A DNA stretch of 64,000 nt from Skermanella rosea (GTDB taxonomy: Bacteria > Pseudomonadota > Alphaproteobacteria > Azospirillales > Azospirillaceae): contig NZ_CP086111.1 in assembly GCF_016806835.2 (NCBI RefSeq), forward strand, positions 3,465,471 to 3,529,470, read 5' to 3'. Made by a program: the position numbers and the translations under genes. The notes below the pieces were generated by a model. The model made no database searches. It was not told where the DNA came from and worked only from the letters and a program-made list of their open reading frames with translations. Below, one piece after another: positions 14,788 to 26,545 of this stretch. Positions within the stretch are counted from its first letter, which is position 1. Every line of letters starts with the position of its first letter.

Positions 14788-17700
14788 ATGGCGGCGCTTC
14801 AGAAGATCGTCAGGGTCCGGCGCACCTACAATCAGTGGGTGGCCAACCAGACCCTGGAGGATTTCGCGCTGCGCTTCACCGCCAAGGGCGCCCGCCGCTG
14901 GTCCGCTCTGCGGGTCGCCAACACCGCGCTCGGCGCCATATCCTTCCTGGCGCTGGAGGCGATCGGCGGCACGGTGACGCTGAACTACGGCTTCACCAAC
15001 GCGATGGCGGCGATCCTGGCCGTGGGTCTGCTGATCTTCATCACGGCGGTGCCGATCAGTTATCATGCCGCCCGCTACGGGGTGGACATCGATCTGCTGA
15101 CCCGGGGTGCCGGGTTCGGCTATATCGGCTCGACCGTCACGTCGCTGATCTACGCCTCCTTCACCTTCATCTTCTTCGCGATCGAAGCCGCGATCATGGC
15201 CCTGGCGCTGGAGATGGGGTTCGGCATTCCCCTGTCGGCCGGCTACCTGATCAGTTCGCTGGTGGTCATCCCGCTGGTGACCCACGGCATCACCTTCATC
15301 AGCCGGTTCCAGCTCTGGACCCAGCCGGTCTGGGTCGTGCTGCACGTGCTGCCCTTCGTCTTCATCGCGATTCACCAGTCCGACGGGCTGAGGGATTGGA
15401 CCGGCTACTCCGGACTGGAAGGGGCGCCGGACGGATCGTTCGACCTGCTGCTGTTCGGGGCCGCGTCCGGCGTGATCTTCGCGCTGATCGCCCAGATCGG
15501 CGAGCAGGTCGATTTCCTGCGCTTCATGCCGGCGAGGCGCCGGGGCAACCGCGTCGCCTGGTGGACCTCCCTGCTGTCGGCCGGGCCGGGCTGGATCGTG
15601 CTGGGAATGGTGAAGCTGGCGGCGGGATCGTTCCTGGCGGTGTTGGCGGTTGGCCAGGGCATGTCCATCGAGCACGCGGCCGAGCCGACGCGGATGTATC
15701 TGGTCGCGTTCGGCCACATGTTCACCAGCGCCGACATGGCGCTGTTCGTGATGGTGATCTTCGTGGTCGTGTCGCAGATCAAGATCAACGTCACCAACGC
15801 CTACGCCGGCTCCATCGCCTGGTCGAACTTCTTCTCCCGCCTGACCCACAGCCATCCGGGCCGTGTGATCTGGCTGGTGTTCAACGTCGCGATAGCCTTC
15901 CTGCTGATGGCGGTTGGGATCTACAAGGCGCTGGAGCAGATCCTGGGCCTTTACTCCGTCGTCGCGGTGTCGTGGGTCGGCGCCATCGTCGCCGACCTGC
16001 TGATCAACAAGCCGCTCAAGCTGAGCCCACCGATCATCGAGTTCAAGCGGGCGCACCTGTACGACATCAACCCGGTCGGGGTCGGCTCGATGCTGCTGGG
16101 GGTCCTGGCCTCCGCCCTTGCCTTCACAGGACTGCTGGGGGCCACGGTGGAGGCGCTGGCTCCCTTCGTGGCGCTGGCGGTGCCGTTCGCCGCGGCCCCG
16201 CTGATCGCCTGGGCGACCGGCGGGCGCTATTACATCGCGCGCTCCTCGGCGGGCCGGTTGCCGGGAACCCCGACGATCCGCTGCGTGATCTGCGAGCACG
16301 CTTTCGAGCGGGAGGACATGGCGTTCTGCCCGGCCTATTCGGGAGCCATCTGCTCCCTGTGCTGCTCGCTGGACGCCCGCTGCCATGATGTCTGCAAGCC
16401 GCAGTCGCGGATGCCGGAGCAGGTGCTGGGCTGGCTGAGGCTGGCCCTGCCGGAGCGGATGGTGGACCGCGTGAACTCCCGCCTGGGCCATTATCTGAGC
16501 CTGCTGGCCCTATTCGGGCTGATCATCGGCCTGATCCTGACGGTGATCTATCATCAGGCCGTGCTGAACGACGACGCCCATCGCGAAACCATCGCCGGGA
16601 TCTTCTGGAACCTGTTCTTCATCCTGATGATCATCACCGGGGTGGCGACTTGGCTGTTCGTCCTGGCCCAGGAAAGCCGCAAGGTCGCGCAGGAGGAAAC
16701 TGCGCGCCAGACCAACCTGCTGATGCAGGAGATCGAAGCCCACGAGCGGACCGACGCCGAGCTTCAGAAAGCCAAAGAGGTCGCGGAAGCCGCCAACCTC
16801 GCCAAGAGCCGTTACGTCGTCGGCATGAGCCACGAGCTGCGCTCGCCGCTGAACGCCATCTTCGGCTATGCCCAGCTGCTGGAGGCCGACCAGACCATCC
16901 CGCCGCGCCGGCGCGACGCCATCAAGGTGATCCGGCGCAGTTCCGAGCACCTGTCGAGCCTGATCGAAGGGCTTCTCGACATCTCGAAGATCGAGGCCGG
17001 CCGGCTGCGGCTCAACCGGGACGAGGTCCATCTGGTCGAGTTCCTGAACCAGATCGTCGACATGTTCAGGCTGCAGGCGACGGCGAAGGGGATCGACTTC
17101 GTATTCGACCGGCCGGAGACGCTGCCGCTGGTGGTCTATACCGATGCCAAGCGCCTGCGCCAGATCCTGATCAACCTGCTGTCCAACGCCATCAAGTTCA
17201 CGCCCGGCGGCTTCATCGCGCTCCGCATCCGCTATCGCAGCCAGGTCGCCGACATCAAGGTGGAGGACAGCGGGATCGGAATCCTGCCCGACGACCTGGG
17301 CCGCATCTTCGAGCCGTTCGAGCGCGGCCAGCAGGCCGGCGCGAGGATGACGCCCGGCACGGGGCTGGGGCTGACCATCACCAAGCTGCTGACGGAGATC
17401 ATGGGCGGCGAGATCTCGGTCAGCAGCGCCGCCGGCAAGGGCAGCGTCTTCCGGGTAAAGCTGCTGCTGTCGGAAGTTCGGCGGCCGGGCCGGCAGGCGC
17501 CCGTCGCCCGAAACATAACCGGCTATGCCGGGCCGCGCCGGACGGTGCTGGTCGCGGACGACGATCCCGACCACCGGGAACTGGTGACGGATATCCTGGG
17601 ACCGCTGGGCTTCATCGTCTTCACGGTCACGGACGGCGCGGCCTGCGTGACATCGGCCCGGGAGATCCAGCCCGACCTGGTGCTGATGGACATCTCCATG

Positions 17701-18177
17701 CCCGGGATCAACGGGCACGACGCCGCCCGGCTGCTGCGTCGGTCCGGCGAGGTGAATGCCCGGATCATCATGATTTCCGCCAATGCCGCGGAAGGACAGG
17801 CGGAGCCGGGAGCCGACGAGGACGGCGGCTCCGCCCATGACGGTTACCTGGAAAAGCCGATCACGATCCCGGCGCTGCTCGACGCGATCCGGGCCGTGCT
17901 GGGCCTGGACTGGGTCCACGGCGCCGCGGTCGAGCCGGCCGAACCTGCGCGGGCCGGCTTTCCGCCGGACACGGTGCCCGAGCGGGGGCACCTGGACGAC
18001 CTGCGGCAGCTCGGCCGGATCGGCTATGTGCGCGGGATCAAGACCAAGCTCGACGAGATCGAGGTGAGGAGCCCCGAGTGCGGGCCGTTCGTCAGCCACA
18101 TGAAGTCGCTGGTGAATGACCTGGCGCTCGACGATTACATGCGGACCCTGGAGGCGCTCGATGGTCATGCTGGATAG
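14788..18177 (+). CDS. NCS1-like permease-histidine kinase-receiver fusion protein
   Basis: It is a 1129-residue membrane sensor. Residues 25-490 form about 12 hydrophobic segments resembling purine/cytosine permeases of the NCS1 family. Residues about 498-535 hold a cysteine cluster (CVIC, then C, CSLCC, C, C) that could bind metal. Two more membrane helices follow (about 575-640), then a coiled coil, a HisKA domain with His682 in SHELRSPLN, a HATPase domain ([27 protein letters not shown]), and a receiver with Asp968 in LVLMDISMPG. A helical tail of about 100 residues ends the protein. It faces the urea/amide operon and overlaps its response regulator, so it may sense urea, amides or nucleobase-derived nitrogen. 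Ligand and transport ability are unknown. Confidence 0.88.
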   Translation: MAALQKIVRVRRTYNQWVANQTLEDFALRFTAKGARRWSALRVANTALGAISFLALEAIGGTVTLNYGFTNAMAAILAVGLLIFITAVPISYHAARYGVDIDLLTRGAGFGYIGSTVTSLIYASFTFIFFAIEAAIMALALEMGFGIPLSAGYLISSLVVIPLVTHGITFISRFQLWTQPVWVVLHVLPFVFIAIHQSDGLRDWTGYSGLEGAPDGSFDLLLFGAASGVIFALIAQIGEQVDFLRFMPARRRGNRVAWWTSLLSAGPGWIVLGMVKLAAGSFLAVLAVGQGMSIEHAAEPTRMYLVAFGHMFTSADMALFVMVIFVVVSQIKINVTNAYAGSIAWSNFFSRLTHSHPGRVIWLVFNVAIAFLLMAVGIYKALEQILGLYSVVAVSWVGAIVADLLINKPLKLSPPIIEFKRAHLYDINPVGVGSMLLGVLASALAFTGLLGATVEALAPFVALAVPFAAAPLIAWATGGRYYIARSSAGRLPGTPTIRCVICEHAFEREDMAFCPAYSGAICSLCCSLDARCHDVCKPQSRMPEQVLGWLRLALPERMVDRVNSRLGHYLSLLALFGLIIGLILTVIYHQAVLNDDAHRETIAGIFWNLFFILMIITGVATWLFVLAQESRKVAQEETARQTNLLMQEIEAHERTDAELQKAKEVAEAANLAKSRYVVGMSHELRSPLNAIFGYAQLLEADQTIPPRRRDAIKVIRRSSEHLSSLIEGLLDISKIEAGRLRLNRDEVHLVEFLNQIVDMFRLQATAKGIDFVFDRPETLPLVVYTDAKRLRQILINLLSNAIKFTPGGFIALRIRYRSQVADIKVEDSGIGILPDDLGRIFEPFERGQQAGARMTPGTGLGLTITKLLTEIMGGEISVSSAAGKGSVFRVKLLLSEVRRPGRQAPVARNITGYAGPRRTVLVADDDPDHRELVTDILGPLGFIVFTVTDGAACVTSAREIQPDLVLMDISMPGINGHDAARLLRRSGEVNARIIMISANAAEGQAEPGADEDGGSAHDGYLEKPITIPALLDAIRAVLGLDWVHGAAVEPAEPARAGFPPDTVPERGHLDDLRQLGRIGYVRGIKTKLDEIEVRSPECGPFVSHMKSLVNDLALDDYMRTLEALDGHAG

Positions 18178-19099
18178 GCTGAAGGCGCGCGACATCGTGC
18201 TGGTCGTCGATGATTCCCCCGAGACGCTCGGCATGCTGACCGACGCGCTGGAAGAGGCCGAGGTGACGGTGCTGGTGGCGCTGGAGGGAGCCAAGGCGCT
18301 GGCGCTGGTCGACGAGATCACGCCCGACGTGATCCTGATGGATGCGATCATGCCGGGGATGAACGGCTTCGAGACCTGCAAGCGGCTGAAGGACAAGAAG
18401 AACGTGGCCCATGTGCCGGTCATCTTCATGACCGGCCTGACCGAAACCGAGCACATCGTCGCGGGCTTCGAGGCCGGCGGCGTCGATTACGTGACCAAGC
18501 CGATCGTGCCGGACGAGCTGATCGTGCGGATGCACGCCCACTTGGCGAACGCGCGTCTGGCCCAGAGCGCCCGCAGCGCGCTGGACGCCACCGGCAGGTT
18601 CCTGCTCGCCGCCAGCAAGGCCGGCGAGGTGCTGTGGTGCACCCCGCAGGCGAGCATCCTGCTGGCCCCGCTGCTGGACGCGGCCGCCGACGACGGCGGG
18701 CACCTGCCTTCCGCCGTCAGGGACTGGCTGGCGGAGCGCGATCGTTCCGGGGCCGACGGGCGGGCGGACGGCGTCGCCGTGACCTGCGGCGACGAGGGGC
18801 ATCGGATCCAGTTCACCTATGTCGGCCGCGCCGGCCCCGACGAGTTCCTGCTGAGGTTGGTCAACAACCGGAGCTGCACCGAGGAGGCCCTTCTGAAGGA
18901 ACGGCTCTGCCTGACCGCGCGGGAGTCGGAGGTGCTGCTGTGGATCGCCCGCGGCAAGTCCAACCGCGATATAAGCGAGATCCTGGGCATGAGCGCCCGC
19001 ACGGTGAACAAGCACCTGGAACAGATCTATGCCAAGCTGGGCGTGGAGAACCGCGCCTCGGCCGCGGTGGTCGCGATCCGGACGGTGGGGCTGACCTGA
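18161..19099 (+). CDS. Response regulator, receiver plus LuxR-type DNA-binding domain
   Basis: It is a 312-residue regulator. The receiver (residues about 7-125) has acidic DD in LVVDDSPE, phospho-acceptor Asp61 in VILMDAIMPG, and the conserved Lys in VTKPIVPDE. A linker of about 110 residues follows with no recognised domain, then a C-terminal LuxR helix-turn-helix (LTARESEVLLWIARGKSNRDI and MSARTVNKHLEQIYAKLGV). Its ATG at 18161 lies inside the end of the kinase gene (17-bp overlap), so the two are coupled and form a cognate pair. The likely target is the divergent amide operon; this is inference from position. Confidence 0.9.
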   Translation: MVMLDRLKARDIVLVVDDSPETLGMLTDALEEAEVTVLVALEGAKALALVDEITPDVILMDAIMPGMNGFETCKRLKDKKNVAHVPVIFMTGLTETEHIVAGFEAGGVDYVTKPIVPDELIVRMHAHLANARLAQSARSALDATGRFLLAASKAGEVLWCTPQASILLAPLLDAAADDGGHLPSAVRDWLAERDRSGADGRADGVAVTCGDEGHRIQFTYVGRAGPDEFLLRLVNNRSCTEEALLKERLCLTARESEVLLWIARGKSNRDISEILGMSARTVNKHLEQIYAKLGVENRASAAVVAIRTVGLT

Positions 19100-19224: not shown

Positions 19225-19674
19225 ATGGCGGACGACAAGGGCAACACCGGAGCTGCCGCGACCGGCAGGGGGACCCAGCAGGCCGAGAACGCGCTTCGCC
19301 AAGGGGCCGACCAGCTTCGCAACCAGATGGGCAACATGGCCGACGTGGCGGGAATGTCGGCGAAGGTTTCCCAGGAGATGATCCAGCGCTCCGGCCAGAA
19401 TTTCGAGATGATGAAGCGGATCGCCGAGACCATGACCTCGGGCGCCCGCAGCGCGGCAGCCGAGTGCGCGGAGTATGCCAAGCATTCCGCCAAGCGGCAG
19501 TCGGAAATGATGCAGCAGCTCGCGTCGGCGCGCAGCCCGAACGACGTCTTGGACATCCAGAACCGTTATCTCCAGGACAATCTGAAGGAACTGCTGAGTT
19601 TCAGCGAGCGCTTGTCCCGCCTGTCGGCCGACAAGGCCAGGGAAGCCAGCGAAAGGTTGGACAACAAGGGCTGA
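19225..19674 (+). CDS. Phasin family protein
   Basis: Phasins coat polyhydroxyalkanoate granules in the cytoplasm. The 149-residue protein starts at ATG 19225 with GGGAGGA nine bases before it. It is mostly amphipathic helix, with the phasin-like region from about residue 45 (SQEMIQRSGQNFEMMKRIAE) to DIQNRYLQDNLKELLSFSERL and a polar Ala/Glu/Lys tail. The N-terminal 35 residues are rich in Gly, Gln and Ala. No PHA synthase gene is nearby. A terminator hairpin follows the gene, so it is likely monocistronic. Confidence 0.85.
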   Translation: MADDKGNTGAAATGRGTQQAENALRQGADQLRNQMGNMADVAGMSAKVSQEMIQRSGQNFEMMKRIAETMTSGARSAAAECAEYAKHSAKRQSEMMQQLASARSPNDVLDIQNRYLQDNLKELLSFSERLSRLSADKAREASERLDNKG

Positions 19675-19752: not shown

Positions 19753-19827
19753 CGTGATCCTCCTCACACCGAAAAACCAACTCCTGTGGGCCGGTTTACA
19801 GGCTCCGGGGCGGGGAGCGGATAGGGT
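19753..19827 (+). promoter_or_regulatory. Promoter of repeat protein A with two Crp-like palindromes
   Basis: Site 1 is CGTGA-N6-TCACA (19753-19768) and site 2 is TGTGG-N6-TTACA (19785-19800). Their starts are 32 bases apart, three helical turns. TAGGGT at 19822-19827 is a candidate -10 box, placing site 2 at -41.5 and site 1 at -73.5 from the inferred start at 19834. The same layout precedes copy B. The position of site 2 is that of a classic class II Crp activator site. Confidence 0.6.
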
Positions 19828-19897
19828 TTGTCCATCGAAGACGACAGCGGCAACCGCCGCGAACCCATCCACCCAGGCCCTTGAAGGAGACACCGTC

Positions 19898-20236
19898 ATG
19901 ATCCGCATCACCAACGCCCCCGCTCTGGCCGCCCTGGTCGCCCTGTCCATCGTCACCGGCTCCCTAACCGTTGGCCCGGCCCAGGCCCAGCAGCGTGGCG
20001 GCGTCGAGATCGGCGGCAACGCCACCGTCATCGGCCTGGCCAACAACGCGGTCAACGCCGCTACCGGCTTCCTGGCGAAGGCGGACCAGAACATCGGCGC
20101 CGTCAAGGGCGACGTGAACATCAAGGGCAACGCCACCGTCATCGGCCTCGCCAACAACGCGGTCAACGCGGCCACGGGCTTCCTGTCCAACGCCTGCCAG
20201 TCGGTCGGCGTGGTCAGTTCCGAGAGCGACTGCTGA
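19898..20236 (+). CDS. Small exported repeat protein, copy A (possible curlin/holdfast-like subunit)
   Basis: It is 112 residues long with a Sec signal peptide ending in AQA|QQ near residue 31. The mature 81 residues consist of two tandem units of about 37 residues that share the identical segment GNATVIGLANNAVNAATGFL. Two cysteines lie at the end of unit 2 and at the C-terminal DC. The composition (Asn, Ala, Gly, Thr; no aromatics except Phe) and repeated strand-turn spacing recall bacterial functional amyloids, but it is not a standard curlin repeat. A Crp-like promoter lies upstream and a strong terminator downstream. Copy B at 22069 is about 86% identical. Function is unknown. Confidence 0.75.
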   Translation: MIRITNAPALAALVALSIVTGSLTVGPAQAQQRGGVEIGGNATVIGLANNAVNAATGFLAKADQNIGAVKGDVNIKGNATVIGLANNAVNAATGFLSNACQSVGVVSSESDC

Positions 20237-20280
20237 TCCCCCGGCCCGGTTCCGCCCTCCCTCCTCTCCGCTCCACTCCA

Positions 20281-20310
20281 GCCCCGCGGCCCGTGCCGCG
20301 GGGCATTTTT
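20281..20310 (+). terminator. Rho-independent terminator after repeat protein A
   Basis: GCCCCGCGG (20281-20289) pairs with CCGCGGGGC (20296-20304) around a six-base loop, followed by ATTTTT. It is the strongest terminator in the window and separates copy A from the channel gene. Confidence 0.88.
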
Positions 20311-20412
20311 CGTTCGGCCGGCTTTCATACGCTTCTCGCCCGGGGCGCTTCGCGCCTAAACTCCCCTGCCCGCTCCCCTGGAACCCACCGGGGATCGATC
20401 CTGCGAGACGCG

Positions 20413-21882
20413 ATGAAGACGTCCGGACACCGGCTGCGCCTGCCCACCCTGCCCCTGGTCGTCACCCTGTGCGGTTTCGCGCTGAGCTTCCTGTGGCCGA
20501 TGGTCCGGTCGCGGCTCGGGCTGGGCATGGACGGCGCGTTCGACGATGCCGTGACGCTGCTGGCCGGGTCCGCCGGATGGTTCGGGCTGGCCTGGTTCGG
20601 AACCCGCGTGGTCGATGGATTGCTGCTGCGGCCGTTAGCGGCCGACCGGTCGCCGGCGGCGCCCCGGCTGATCGGCGACCTGGCGCGCGTCCTGTTCTTC
20701 GGACTGGCCGGGCTGGCGGTCGCCAGCTTCGTCCTTCATCTGCCGGTCACCGGGCTGGTCGCGACCTCCGGCGTGGTCATCGCGGTGCTGGGGTTCGCGT
20801 TGCGCAACATCCTGGCCGACATTTTCTCCGGCATCGCGATCAACGTCGAGCATCCCTACCGGATCGGCGACTGGATCCAGGTGGGAACATCCTCCGGCGG
20901 CCCCGGACCGACGGGCAAGGTGGTCGAGGTGAACTGGCGCTCGACCCGGCTGCTGACGGCGGACGGGACCACCGTCATCCTGCCCAACGGCCTGATCGCG
21001 GGCAGCCGCTTCGTCAATCTCAGCCTGCCGGATCCCTCCTACCGGGCGTCGCTGCGGGTCCACCTGGATCCGGCGGTGCCGGTCAAGCGGGCACGGCGGG
21101 TGCTGATGACCGCCCTGCTGTCGGTCGATCACCTGCTGGGCGACGGTCCGTCCGATGTGGTGGTGGAGAGCGTCGGGGACGCCGGGGTCTGTTACCTGCT
21201 GCGCTTCCGCGTGCCCGACCACGGCGCCGAGGTGGCCTGCCGCGACGCGGTCGCCGCCGCCATGCTGAAGGCGCTGCGCGATGCCGGATTGTCCGTCGCG
21301 GCCCCGCGCCGGAGCCTGGTCCCGCAGAGCCGCACCGGCCGCGACCTGGAAGGCATGGACGTCTGCCGCCGCATGCTGGGCGCGATCCCCCTGTTCCAGG
21401 CCTTCACGCCGGGCGAACTGGACGGGCTGGCGAGCCGGATGAAGCGCAGGCAGTTCACGGCCGGCGCCGTCGTGGTGAACCAGGGCGATCGGGGATCCTC
21501 TCTCTTTCTGGTGACCGAGGGCCTGCTGGAGGTGCGCGGGACCGTCGCCGGCAAGGAGGGCGTGCGGACTGTCGAGCTGGACCGCATGGGGCCGGGAGCC
21601 ATCTTCGGCGAGATGGCGCTGCTGACCGGCGAACCGCGCAGCGCCACGGTGGCGGCCATGACCGACGCCGTCGTCTATGAGCTGGCCGGCGAGCATCTGC
21701 GCCCGCTGCTGCATGATCGCGCCGAACTGGCGGAGAGGCTCTCGGAGCTTATGGCGGAACGGGCGGAGCACAACGCGGAGAAGCGCGCGACTGCGCTTCG
21801 CCCGATGCCGGAACCACCGATCCCCCATCGGCGGGACCTGCTGGACCGCTTGCGGGATTTCTTCGGACTGCCGGCGCCGTGA
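20413..21882 (+). CDS. MscS-type mechanosensitive channel with C-terminal cyclic-nucleotide-binding domain
   Basis: It is a 489-residue inner-membrane protein. Four hydrophobic segments occupy residues about 10-150; the last matches the MscS pore helix and continues into the beta domain (GFALRNILADIFSGIAINVEHPYRIGDWI, then ILPNGLI). After the cytoplasmic alpha/beta region, residues about 320-445 form a cNMP-binding domain with the phosphate-binding cassette GEMALLTGEPRSA. Cyclic-nucleotide-gated members of the bCNG/MscS family have this layout. The ATG at 20413 is chosen because the family N-terminus starts just after it; its ribosome site is weak. It lies between the two repeat-protein genes and near a Crp-type regulator. 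Confidence 0.9.
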   Translation: MKTSGHRLRLPTLPLVVTLCGFALSFLWPMVRSRLGLGMDGAFDDAVTLLAGSAGWFGLAWFGTRVVDGLLLRPLAADRSPAAPRLIGDLARVLFFGLAGLAVASFVLHLPVTGLVATSGVVIAVLGFALRNILADIFSGIAINVEHPYRIGDWIQVGTSSGGPGPTGKVVEVNWRSTRLLTADGTTVILPNGLIAGSRFVNLSLPDPSYRASLRVHLDPAVPVKRARRVLMTALLSVDHLLGDGPSDVVVESVGDAGVCYLLRFRVPDHGAEVACRDAVAAAMLKALRDAGLSVAAPRRSLVPQSRTGRDLEGMDVCRRMLGAIPLFQAFTPGELDGLASRMKRRQFTAGAVVVNQGDRGSSLFLVTEGLLEVRGTVAGKEGVRTVELDRMGPGAIFGEMALLTGEPRSATVAAMTDAVVYELAGEHLRPLLHDRAELAERLSELMAERAEHNAEKRATALRPMPEPPIPHRRDLLDRLRDFFGLPAP

Positions 21883-21919
21883 TCGGGCCCATCCGATTCC
21901 GGCTGAACGATGAGCCGGA

Positions 21920-21994
21920 CGTGGCCCGCTTCACAGTGATTCCAGGCCGGGTGTAAGCCCGTTTACATCGGCGGCTCAAGGGTTTGGGTAGGTT
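21920..21994 (+). promoter_or_regulatory. Promoter of repeat protein B with two Crp-like palindromes
   Basis: Site 1 is CGTGG-N6-TCACA (21920-21935) and site 2 is the perfect palindrome arm pair TGTAA-N6-TTACA (21952-21967), again 32 bases apart. TAGGTT (21989-21994) is the candidate -10 box, with 21 bases between site 2 and the box exactly as in copy A. The inferred start at 22001 puts the sites at -41.5 and -73.5. Confidence 0.62.
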
Positions 21995-22068
21995 TGTGTC
22001 ATCGCGAAGGACGCGATCGGCGCTGAAGCCGAAACCCACCGCAAACCCGATGAAAAGGAGTCCAGTCC

Positions 22069-22407
22069 ATGATCCGCATCACCACCGTCCCCGCTCTGGC
22101 CGCCGTCGTCGCCCTGTCCATCGCCGCCGGTTCCCTGGCAGCCAGCCCGGCCCTGGCCCAGCAGCGCGGCGGCGTCGAGATCGGCGGCAACGCCACCGTG
22201 ATCGGCCTGGCCAACAACGCGGTCAACGCCGCCACCGGCTTCCTGGCGAAGGCGGACCAAAACATCGGCTCGGTCAAGGGCGACGTGAACGTCAAGGGCA
22301 ACGCCACCGTCATCGGCCTCGCCAACAACGCGGTCAACGCTTCGACGGGGTTCCTGTCCAGCGCCTGCCAGACGGTCGGCGGCATCAACTCCGAAAGCGA
22401 CTGCTGA
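22069..22407 (+). CDS. Small exported repeat protein, copy B
   Basis: It is the paralogue of the gene at 19898, also 112 residues, with signal peptide ending ALA|QQ. The mature part again has two units with GNATVIGLANNAVNA(A/S)TGFL and two cysteines at the same places. Differences from copy A are mostly in the signal peptide and the last 15 residues; the repeat cores are almost unchanged, which suggests purifying selection or recent duplication. The duplication includes the promoter with its two palindromes. AAAGGAG precedes the ATG. It is convergent with the Crp/Fnr gene across a GC-rich hairpin. Confidence 0.75.
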   Translation: MIRITTVPALAAVVALSIAAGSLAASPALAQQRGGVEIGGNATVIGLANNAVNAATGFLAKADQNIGSVKGDVNVKGNATVIGLANNAVNASTGFLSSACQTVGGINSESDC

Positions 22408-22426
22408 CCGGCGGTGACACGCCACG

Positions 22427-22455
22427 GCCCCGCGGCGCAAGGATCGCCGCGGGGC
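22427..22455. terminator. GC-rich hairpin shared by convergent genes
   Basis: GCCCCGCGGCG (22427-22437) pairs with CGCCGCGGGGC (22445-22455) around a seven-base loop, between the repeat protein B stop and the Crp-type gene stop. No T-run follows on either strand, so it may slow or block transcription rather than be a full intrinsic terminator. Confidence 0.5.
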
Positions 22456-22460
22456 GGGGA

Positions 22461-23189
22461 TCAGGCTTCCGCCTCGTCCTCGTCGTAGAAGTCGGCCAAC
22501 TCGCGCAGGCCATCGAGGTCGCGGATCGTGATCGATCCCGCCGAGACCGTGATCAACCCGTCGCGCTGCCATTCGTTCAGGTGCTTGTTGGTGCTTTCCC
22601 GGGTGATGCCGACCAGGGTGCCCAACTGCTGCTGGGAGAGCTTGACGTCGATCCGGGTTCCTCCTCCGCGCTCCTCCACCCCGAAGGCGGTCGCCAATCG
22701 GACGAGGCAACGGGCGAGCCGGATCGGCACTTCCAGGAACAGGGTGTCCTCCAGCTGGGTGCTGGTCCGGCGAAGCCGGTCGCACAGGACGTTGAACATA
22801 CGCAGGCAGACGGTGGGATGGCTCTCCAGCCAGGGCAGGAAATGCCGACGCTCCAGCACCAGCAGGCTGGTGTCCTCGATCGCGACCGCCTCGGCGGTCC
22901 GCAGCTTGCCGTCCAGCAGGGCGATCTCGCCGAAGTACTCGCCCTTGCGGACGATGTTCAGCGTGACCTCCTTGCCTTCGGCCGAGTAGCTGCAGATCCG
23001 CACCCGGCCCGACAGCACGGCCATCATGCTGGAGCCGGGGTCGCCCTGACGGAAGATGATGGTCCGCGGCCGGTGCTGCGCCACGGTGGCATAGGCGGCC
23101 AGTTGCGACAGCTCGCCGGGATCGACATGCTTCAGCAAGGAATGCTCCGCCAGGACGGCAAGCTTTTCCTCCAGTCCCATCATGGCCAT
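22461..23189 (-). CDS. Crp/Fnr-family transcriptional regulator
   Basis: It is a 242-residue regulator. Residues about 20-140 form a cNMP-binding beta roll with GEYFGEIALLDGKLRTAEAVA, which keeps the Gly-Glu and Arg-Thr-Ala equivalents of the Crp phosphate pocket. A dimer helix follows, then a winged helix with recognition helix around ITRESTNKHLNEW; the Arg-Glu pair corresponds to the residues of Crp that read GTGA half sites. No N-terminal Fnr-type cysteine cluster is present, so oxygen sensing by an iron-sulfur cluster is unlikely. Palindromes of the type TGTRR-N6-TTACA occur upstream of the neighbouring repeat-protein genes and are its probable targets. Confidence 0.9.
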   Translation of the reverse strand: MAMMGLEEKLAVLAEHSLLKHVDPGELSQLAAYATVAQHRPRTIIFRQGDPGSSMMAVLSGRVRICSYSAEGKEVTLNIVRKGEYFGEIALLDGKLRTAEAVAIEDTSLLVLERRHFLPWLESHPTVCLRMFNVLCDRLRRTSTQLEDTLFLEVPIRLARCLVRLATAFGVEERGGGTRIDVKLSQQQLGTLVGITRESTNKHLNEWQRDGLITVSAGSITIRDLDGLRELADFYDEDEAEA

Positions 23190-23413
23190 CGGCGATGCCT
23201 CTCAGGCTAAGCCCTGTCATGGACCAGGGTACACCAAGGATTGTTCTCTTCCATGATTTGAGAAGCATTATGGTCACGCCGGTCCGGGACTGTCCACTTC
23301 TCCCTGGATGGTGGAAAGCTAAACGAAATAGCGATTGCCCTCTCCAGTCTTTCAGATAGAGACTAATACCCCTCAAGTTTTCAGGCAGCACCGATCAGGA
23401 AAGGAGTCCCACC

Positions 23414-25009
23414 ATGTCCAAGATCCGCCTTCGCCGTCATGGACCGGCCCGCCGTGGCTGGGCCAGGCGCGCCGGGTGGCTGGCGGGCGGGTGCCTGATG
23501 CTCGCGGGATGCATGTCGGACCCGGCGATAGCCCCCGTCGTGGTGGAGCCGAAGACGCCGACCACGAAGACGATCAGCAGCTTCACCAGCAGCCTGCAAT
23601 GCATGGACACCCTGCTGTGGCAGCACGGCAAGAGCGACATCTACATCATGACCTCGGGCATCCCCGACGCCACCGGCAAGGTCGCGGCGGGGACCAAGGA
23701 GATGCTGATCACCGCGATCTCCCGCATGTCGGCGCGCAGCAACGCGTTCCGCTTCGTGGACTTCGAACCCAACCCGAACAGCGACGTCACGGCCCTGTCC
23801 GCCCTGATCGGAGTCCAGCCCGACTTCGTGGTGCCCAGCTATTACATCCGGGGCGCCATCACCCAGTTGGACGAGAACGTGCTGAGCGAGTTGCAGGGCG
23901 GTTCCGTGTCCCTGCCCTTCCTGGACCTGGGAGCATCGCGCGACCGGATCGTCTCGGTCGTGTCGGTCGACCTCAATGTCGGCGAGGTGGTGACCCGCCA
24001 GATCCTGCCGGGCATGTCGGCCAGCAACTCGATCGCGGTGGTGCGGTCGGGCATCAGCGGCGATGCCGGGGGCCGGATCGACAAGGCCGGCTTCGCCTTC
24101 AACGTGGCCTTCAACAAGTCCGAAGGATTCCACCAGGCGGTCAGGACGCTGGTCGACCTGAGCGTGGTCGAGACGCTGGGCAAGCTGACCCGGGTTCCCT
24201 ATTGGCAGTGCCTGGGGCTGGACCAGACCAACCCGACCTTCCGGGCGCAGGCCCGCGAATGGTTCGATACCACCCCGCCCGACGAGCAGGTCCGCTTCGC
24301 CCAGCAGATCCTGTCCAGCGGCGGCTATTACGAAGGGCCGATCACCGGCATCTATGACATCGACACCAAGGAGGCGGCGGCGCGCTACCAGACCGACAAC
24401 GACCTGATCGCCACGGGCAGGATCGATTTCGACCTGTATTACTCGATGCTGGGCAAGCCCGGCGTGACCGCCCGCGCGCCCGGACGCACCGGCGCCATCG
24501 CCAATGCCGGAGGCCCCGGCATTCCGCTGATCCCGACCGATGCGAACGGCGAGCGCCGCCTGGACCTGTTCCTCAACACCGACCGCGGCCCGGTGCCCCA
24601 GTTCAAGCAGGGCGAGGCCCTGGTGGTGAAGGTGCAGGCGACCGCGGACGCGTTCCTCTATTGCTATTATCAGGACAGCGACGGAACCGTGGCGCGGGTC
24701 TTCCCGAACCGGTTCCAGCCCGACCCCTTCGTGACGGCGAACCAGCAGATCGAGATCCCGCCCGGCTACGAGAAGCCTTTCAATATCCGGCTGGACAGCG
24801 TCGGCGACAGCGAGGCTGTCGCGTGCTTCGCCTCGGCCCGCGAGGTCGGCCTGTCCCTGCCCGATGCGATGAAGATCGAGGACCTGAGGCCGATCCCCCA
24901 GGCGACCCTGCAAAGCGTCGGCCAAGCCTTCGACGGGATTCCCGCCGGGAACGTCCGGACCAAGCGCCTGAACCTGCGGGTCGTCCCGGCCAACGCCGTC
25001 GATTTCTGA
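23414..25009 (+). CDS. CsgG/HfaB-like lipoprotein with peptidoglycan-binding-like and DUF4384 domains
   Basis: It is a 531-residue exported lipoprotein; the lipobox LAGC places the acylated Cys at residue 33. Residues about 50-275 resemble CsgG, the outer-membrane curli secretion pore: IPDATGKVAAGTKEMLITAIS parallels the CsgG stretch with DETG followed by AMLVTAL, and YYIRGAITQLDEN and VSVVSVDLNVGEVVTRQIL fit the later strands. Residues about 290-345 look like a PG_binding_1 repeat (GYYEGPITGIYDIDTKEA), and residues about 385-470 like DUF4384 (ALVVKVQATADAFLYCYYQD). GGAAAGGAG precedes the ATG. It may export the nearby repeat proteins; this is inference from domain and position. Confidence 0.72.
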   Translation: MSKIRLRRHGPARRGWARRAGWLAGGCLMLAGCMSDPAIAPVVVEPKTPTTKTISSFTSSLQCMDTLLWQHGKSDIYIMTSGIPDATGKVAAGTKEMLITAISRMSARSNAFRFVDFEPNPNSDVTALSALIGVQPDFVVPSYYIRGAITQLDENVLSELQGGSVSLPFLDLGASRDRIVSVVSVDLNVGEVVTRQILPGMSASNSIAVVRSGISGDAGGRIDKAGFAFNVAFNKSEGFHQAVRTLVDLSVVETLGKLTRVPYWQCLGLDQTNPTFRAQAREWFDTTPPDEQVRFAQQILSSGGYYEGPITGIYDIDTKEAAARYQTDNDLIATGRIDFDLYYSMLGKPGVTARAPGRTGAIANAGGPGIPLIPTDANGERRLDLFLNTDRGPVPQFKQGEALVVKVQATADAFLYCYYQDSDGTVARVFPNRFQPDPFVTANQQIEIPPGYEKPFNIRLDSVGDSEAVACFASAREVGLSLPDAMKIEDLRPIPQATLQSVGQAFDGIPAGNVRTKRLNLRVVPANAVDF

Positions 25010-26098: not shown

Positions 26099-26545
26099 AA
26101 AAAATCCCTCGCCTTGAGTAACCCTGGTCTATGACGAAAGACGCTGCCAGCGCGGATGCTGCGCAGAAATCGTCGGCAAGTCCTCTTCGCTTCTCGAAAT
26201 CTACGTCTCTGACGCCCAGGATGAATGTGACGGCTCCGGATAATAAATTTAAGTCGCCTTTTGTTCATAGAACGATATGGCATCAAAGTATTTGGTGCGG
26301 GCATTCTGTACCTTCGTTCGGCTGATACCGGCTTCGCGGTTCGGTCGACCGTCGGATGCCGGCACGGGATGGCCGGAACAAGATGGCCGGAACAAGATGG
26401 AACGTGGCGTGTTTCGCTCCTCGCCGTCGGAACCGGGTTTTGCGGTGCCGGAGGCATCCAAAGCCGTGGCGGAAGCCATTTAGGAACCAGGGACGGTACA
26501 GGCGGTTGCTCCCATTCCGCCTGGTGCGGATCATCAGAACGGAGC
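26099..26545. other. Intergenic region between divergent genes, no gene seen
   Basis: This 447-bp stretch separates the divergent oxidoreductase and inositol-phosphate synthase genes and must hold both promoters. The half near the oxidoreductase is relatively AT-rich (around 26230-26290). Short open frames here have no family features. A 14-bp tandem repeat lies at 26368-26400. Confidence 0.6.
26368..26400. repeat. 14-bp tandem repeat GATGGCCGGAACAA
   Basis: Two exact copies of GATGGCCGGAACAA and a further GATGG follow one another, with a degenerate copy (GATGCCGGCACGG) just before at about 26354. It lies about 150 bp upstream of the inositol-phosphate synthase start. Confidence 0.8.

Follow-up and report, generated by a model that had tools for sequence, protein, structure and literature searches.

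A candidate CsgG-family export system of Skermanella rosea that has a pore type, substrates and wiring of its own

Within the 7.76 Mb genome of Skermanella rosea, a stretch of 64,000 nt that was analysed as a whole (the window) carries, at 19898-25009, five genes that probably belong to a CsgG-family (type VIII-like) export system, separate from both curli and the Caulobacter holdfast anchor. Two of them (A1 and A2) code for small exported proteins with repeats, and the others for an MscS-type channel, a regulator of the Crp family and a lipoprotein, here called C. The N-terminal half of C is homologous to HfaB, the A proteins and a second exported family, B, recur beside C in other genomes, and paired CRP-like boxes before the A genes are conserved. 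As far as sequence comparison goes, the idea of a CsgG-family system whose pore architecture, substrates and wiring are its own holds up; export and fibre formation are what we infer from it. A preliminary description of this DNA had proposed a curli- or holdfast-like export system made of different parts, which these comparisons support, and the five genes that it named are all confirmed:

19898..20236, + strand: A1, an exported protein of 112 aa with repeats; matched by no family of Pfam or NCBIfam above cut-off
20413..21882, + strand: MscS-type channel with MS_channel_2nd and a C-terminal cNMP_binding domain (Pfam)
22069..22407, + strand: A2, likewise an exported protein of 112 aa with repeats, sharing 85% identity with A1; no family above cut-off
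22461..23189, - strand: Crp-family regulator P0004 with cNMP_binding and HTH_Crp_2 (Pfam)
23414..25009, + strand: lipoprotein C, 531 residues, with an HfaB/CsgG-like domain (~45-275), PG_binding_1 (290-342) and DUF4384 (396-476)

The genes lie where they had been placed, but the start first given, 19753, belongs to an over-long GTG frame, and A1 begins at 19898.

Lipoprotein C in the CsgG/HfaB superfamily

CsgG-type pores are known chiefly from curli, and next from HfaB. The peptidoglycan-binding and DUF4384 domains that had been read in C are confirmed by Pfam (E 4e-10 for PG_binding_1 and E 5e-17 for DUF4384). A lipobox, LMLAGC, was recognized by eye, and Cys33 is invariant in 15 C proteins, of which 14 have PG_binding_1 and all 15 have DUF4384. 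The closest relatives among named species are found in Skermanella stibiiresistens (85% identity) and S. aerolata (82%). The NCBIfam model of HfaB (NF037935) matches C with E 1.9e-6, at 27.3 bits against an equivalog cut-off of 300; at E 0.01 it matches 11/15 C proteins, and the CsgG model matches 5/15.

For profile comparison by hhalign, residues 45-275 of 39 C proteins were used, and signal peptides were removed. This N-terminal half aligned with a set of 19 HfaB-type proteins (13 above the NCBIfam cut-off) at 99.0% over 214 columns (E 6e-18); the controls, namely the C-terminal half of C itself, OmpA, Crp and MscS, reached 0.0-0.6% against HfaB and two single CsgG sequences. Against five CsgG-type proteins it reached 87.7% (E 3e-6), with controls at 0.1-2.0% and HfaB against the same set at 99.4%. 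Against the two single CsgG sequences the value was only 2.0% and 0.9%, and a second CsgG set, of more distant members, gave 0.1%. Because of this profile comparison with its controls, C is placed in the CsgG/HfaB superfamily, nearest HfaB, an affiliation that is real at the level of profiles. The suspicion that C might lack a CsgG fold, raised in advance, is not borne out by the 99.0% against HfaB beside controls of at most 2.0%. A match to the CsgG-like part of C is also found among phage proteins, in the family phrog_20175 (E 5e-6), whose function is unknown.

The superfamily members differ in the stretch that leads from the D-x-TG motif to the helix after it. It measures 4 residues in 27/39 C proteins (the other 12 gave no match to the expression), 12-14 residues in 17/19 HfaB-type proteins (two without match to the expression), and 18 residues in the curli CsgG of the S. 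rosea genome itself, as aligned with C. E. coli CsgG has KPYP-ASNF in this stretch, and by our own reading we place Tyr51, Asn55 and Phe56 in this loop. These residues are reported to form the three rings that narrow the CsgG pore (PMC6957492).

Small exported families and other partners of C

A1 and A2 each contain two copies of a 37-residue repeat, and throughout the A family the best period is 36-39 residues in 15/18 sequences; identity of A outside Skermanella is 26-32%. The AlphaFold2 model of A2, with a mean predicted local distance difference test (pLDDT) value of 66 (~63-79 over residues 31-110), consists of two units of 15- and 10-residue strands, and such predicted strands would fit a stacked repeat. 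The tested A members stay below the cut-off of every Pfam and NCBIfam family and match no Fap family; Pfam matches of A to solenoid, hexapeptide or barrel models stayed below cut-off and were not used. Identity of A with curlin was rejected at 0.0% in hhalign against four curlins, a weak test in that HfaA against curlin gives only 0.1%. Identity with HfaA was likewise rejected (0.1%), a remote tie being possible as the method also fails to join HfaA with curlin. As to a supposed likeness of A to the chaplins of Streptomyces, no chaplin match appeared in the Pfam scan.

A C profile was run at a threshold of E 1e-20 over 385 genomes of the class and 398 of the phylum (Pseudomonadota). It was found in 15/385 of the former, eight with the CsgG-like part and seven with the DUF4384 end only, and in 19/398 of the latter. 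The neighbourhoods compared comprise 37 C loci, i.e., that of the window, 12 from related genomes, four from Comamonas and 20 from the two surveys; they are not independent, including five from Skermanella besides the four from Comamonas, and some stop at a contig edge. Within 6 kb of C, A is present in 28/37 loci (27/37 without one doubtful case, L114), B in 22/37, an OmpA-domain protein, D, in 20/37 and a family of ~100 residues with a CWQ-G motif, E, in 13/37. Less frequent at this distance are DUF2807, Crp and MscS-cNMP proteins (seven loci each) and a second DUF4384 protein, a caspase and a CHASE2 adenylate cyclase (six each). B is an exported family with two cysteines that are invariant in 17 sequences, and its tested members, too, remain below cut-off for all families of Pfam and NCBIfam. 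Its identity with HfaA or curlin was rejected by hhalign (0.4% against HfaA), the test being one that also fails to join HfaA with curlin. A or B stands beside C not in Skermanella alone but also in Comamonas, in other genera of the family to which Skermanella belongs and in further Proteobacteria.

The association also holds when it is counted from the small proteins. In the phylum survey the A profile matches 11/398 genomes, and C is present in 10 of these 11; the repeat proteins, for which a wide spread without any CsgG-like partner had been considered beforehand, are not so distributed in this sample. A adjoins C on the same contig in nine of the ten genomes, and in the tenth (G431) both lie at contig ends. 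The lone A-positive genome without C (G603) has a weak match (E 1.2e-5) to a spore-coat-U-type pilin-like protein and looks like a false positive. The B profile matches 12/398 genomes, all 12 with C, and B is beside C in 11, the twelfth being S. rosea. Genomes that had given seeds to the profiles make up 7/10 (A) and 10/12 (B); without them C accompanies A in 3/4 and B in 2/2 (p 9e-5 and 5e-4, respectively). Conversely, nine of the 19 C genomes have no A at threshold; in four of them, C has B and a looser A-type protein beside it. Such profile searches would miss more distant relatives of A or B elsewhere, and the iterated A model drifted, taking in one B protein (L108) and pentapeptide-like proteins of Comamonas.

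Two C loci without A have other exported repeat proteins nearby. In L044, a protein with four GIGN-type repeats of period ~40 (L044:1504-1971) is encoded ~6.5 kb upstream of C, with a CRP-like site at 1363; it is a possible substitute subunit where the C locus has no A. Near the C locus of L050, a protein of 773 residues with 20-residue Q-rich repeats (L050:11418-13739) is preceded by a perfect TGTGA-N6-TCACA site (11314).

The B gene of S. rosea is located on the main contig at ~1.04 Mb (G000:C1:1028001-1048000, L173), 2.4 Mb from C. Around it are an E-like gene (recognized by eye) and genes for DUF2807, OmpA-domain and caspase-FGE proteins, a CHASE2 adenylate cyclase and a second DUF4384 protein; DUF4399 is present there as well (in one of two tested). 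Within 6 kb after C, S. aerolata has B, E, DUF2807, caspase and DUF4384, and three genomes from another genus of this family have D, E, DUF4384 and the cyclase there. From these arrangements, the C locus and the second locus of S. rosea are probably one system that has been split. The genome also has an ordinary curli locus ~2 Mb from C (G000:C1:5488000-5504000, L052), with CsgF, CsgG and four long curlin-like proteins, one of which was tested and has Curlin_rpt. The absence of CsgE, CsgF and curlin that had been noted for the window holds for the five locus proteins, none of which matches these models in Pfam or NCBIfam (only these five were scanned), and the separate curli locus has to be added to it.

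CRP-like boxes and the surrounding genes

Each of the two A genes is preceded by a pair of CRP-like boxes:

19753..19768: distal box of A1, CGTGATCCTCCTCACA; 1 mismatch to TGTGA-N6-TCACA, with a conserved start 32 bp upstream of the proximal one
19785..19800: proximal box of A1, TGTGGGCCGGTTTACA; 113 bp upstream of the A1 start codon
21920..21935: distal box of A2, CGTGGCCCGCTTCACA; the pair occurs genome-wide only before A
21952..21967: proximal box of A2, TGTAAGCCCGTTTACA; 117 bp upstream of the A2 start codon

The distal boxes follow the pattern GTGR-N6-TCACA and start 32 bp upstream of the proximal ones. Eleven of the 12 A genes in five Skermanella genomes have boxes paired at this distance, one with a poor distal box; the twelfth, without the pair, is the second of a tandem duplicate. 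Allowing up to two mismatches, the paired pattern, which was built from these very sites, occurs twice in 7.76 Mb, before A1 and A2, and in reversed form never.

Sites with at most one mismatch to TGTGA-N6-TCACA were further counted against shuffled sequence. Seven C loci with a linked Crp gene (157.5 kb) contain 14 sites, against a shuffle mean of 2.35 and a maximum of 5 in 20 shuffles, whereas 30 C loci without linked Crp (456 kb) contain 7 against 8.67. Two further loci (34 kb) have 2 sites against 0.40, a count that was reached by 1/20 shuffles, and three other stretches of the S. rosea genome (50 kb) have 1 against 0.45. The window alone has 1 site against 0.77 expected, so that the box at 19753 by itself is no more than chance. 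In the second locus, the sole TGTGA-N6-TCACA-like site in 20 kb is located 101 bp before B.

The five-gene locus is flanked by a phasin gene upstream and a gene for an FAD oxidoreductase downstream (Pfam). Farther upstream in the window lie a hybrid histidine kinase of 1129 residues with a long multi-pass N-terminal part (14788-18177) and a LuxR-type response regulator (18116-19099), after which comes the phasin (~19225-19674). Downstream, an intergenic 14-bp tandem repeat (2.4 copies, 100% matches) is located at 26368-26400.

A proposed mechanism, its alternatives and known systems

In the export system proposed here, C would oligomerise to form an outer-membrane pore, which PG_binding_1 would tie to the cell wall. 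The A proteins would cross the inner membrane by the Sec route, remain unfolded in the periplasm and pass through C to assemble on the surface into a stacked-repeat fibre or coat, probably a beta-solenoid. B, which in this genome belongs to the second locus, may be a minor subunit, or one for nucleation or anchoring, and D, with its OmpA domain, may serve as a wall anchor. A Crp-family regulator would switch on A and B at the CRP-like boxes, the putative source of cyclic AMP (cAMP) being the CHASE2 adenylate cyclase of the second locus. Somewhat more tentatively, although we still favour it, such a system may be regarded as a third branch of the CsgG family, having a wall-tethered pore without the constriction loop, two unnamed secreted families, and cAMP wiring through a CHASE2 cyclase of its own and Crp boxes; the pore gene of this branch is counted in 19/398 Pseudomonadota and 8/385 genomes of the class.

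Several observations weigh against an export system of this kind. In Pfam, C scores 14.0 bits with CsgG, below the cut-off of 20.8; neither its single sequence nor a 15-row profile finds a sequence relative in the PDB; and an AlphaFold2 model of the monomer from 8 sequences reaches a pLDDT of 38, because of which its CsgG fold rests on sequence profiles. C appears to lack the loop that holds the constriction residues of CsgG. As to the presumed substrate, A has no similarity to curlin or HfaA that hhalign detects, and a Foldseek search of the A2 model against the PDB returned nothing at E <=0.001 (best 4.0). Nine of the 37 C loci have no A, which is thus not universal, the sole A match of L114 is a doubtful call in a 786-residue frame, and part of the C neighbourhoods supplied the seeds of the A and B profiles, which were then run over all 37. 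As to regulation, no box of the proximal type is found before C (five genomes) or MscS (two genomes), five of the seven Crp-linked C loci belong to one genus, and HTH_Crp_2 has 32 matches in the genome (24 of them over cut-off), with P0004 the highest scorer, so that P0004 is one of many candidates for binding the boxes. Of the Crp control claimed in the preliminary description, the part that gains support is the paired CRP-like boxes before A; none was found before C.

Three other explanations may be considered. C might mainly be part of an HfaB-like anchoring complex, in which A, B and D hold polysaccharide at the outer membrane and A makes a local adhesive patch rather than a fibre. The nearness of C to HfaB, its wall-binding domain and its OmpA-domain neighbours are in keeping with such a role, as is the description of HfaABD as the anchor of the holdfast polysaccharide (PMC6707917). 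However, no relative of HfaA or HfaD was found beside C (no profile was made for HfaD), A and B are unlike HfaA, and no polysaccharide secretion cluster was noticed there, though no search was aimed at one; we consider this explanation unlikely. Alternatively, C might be an outer-membrane lipoprotein that senses the state of the cell wall and is not a pore. A and B would then be its partners in the periplasm, within a circuit for envelope stress whose end points are the caspase, the cyclase and the MscS channel. DUF4384 and the caspase-FGE, CHASE2 cyclase and MscS-cNMP neighbours of some loci would suit a sensor, and so would the short loop at the constriction position. The homology to HfaB/CsgG, on the other hand, spans the whole domain, including the part between the two helices that forms the barrel in CsgG, and low-complexity repeat proteins in several copies suit a structural subunit. 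A sensor seems a little less likely still than an anchor. Least of all do we credit a chance neighbourhood of a CsgG paralogue and two duplicated small genes, which is very improbable: the Skermanella MscS and Crp genes do lie between or beside A and C, and the C promoter has no box, but A or B beside C recurs across genera, with A at only 26-32% identity outside Skermanella, and both are nearly absent from sampled genomes without C.

If C does export A, the export system would offer a natural comparison for what a CsgG-type pore recognises in its subunit, and would bear on whether subunits can stay unfolded in passage without the constriction loop. In Rhodospirillales, cAMP signalling would also acquire a definite target through the CHASE2 cyclase and the Crp boxes. 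Curated models miss the C branch, with C under the CsgG cut-off and the tested A and B members in no family, so the system is invisible to routine annotation. In a curli survey, many CsgG matches are considered likely paralogues from a larger family, and many alphaproteobacteria have only curlin subunits recognised (PMC3521004).

Among known systems, HfaABD of Caulobacter is the most similar to C: HfaB is a CsgG-family lipoprotein, the closest to C by profile (99.0%), and is required for HfaA and HfaD to reach the surface (PMC6707917). C differs in its additional PG_binding_1 and DUF4384 domains and in scoring 27 bits against the cut-off of 300, and A and B show no relation to HfaA. Curli resemble the C locus in that a lipoprotein of the CsgG superfamily adjoins small exported repeat proteins, but the C locus has no match to curlin, CsgE or CsgF, the 37-residue repeats of A are not of the curlin type, and C is without the constriction loop. 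The Fap system (FapC, FapF) likewise has small exported subunits, whose repeats are few, long and imperfect, and an outer-membrane pore dedicated to them (PMC12822426); its pore is the trimeric barrel FapF, however, and A matches no Fap family in NCBIfam or Pfam. MafA of Neisseria is a lipoprotein called reminiscent of CsgG by its authors and proposed as a dedicated exporter (PMC7738311), but its substrate and gene set are others. The BiofilmReg operon of Burkholderia (PMC5192318) is not the same gene set. A literature search that covered few subscription papers, some sources in part, found no description of the C/A/B gene set and no paper joining CsgG with DUF4384. As the best reading, CsgG-type export as such is known, and the A and B families and the architecture of C represent a variant of it that stands beside curli and Hfa.

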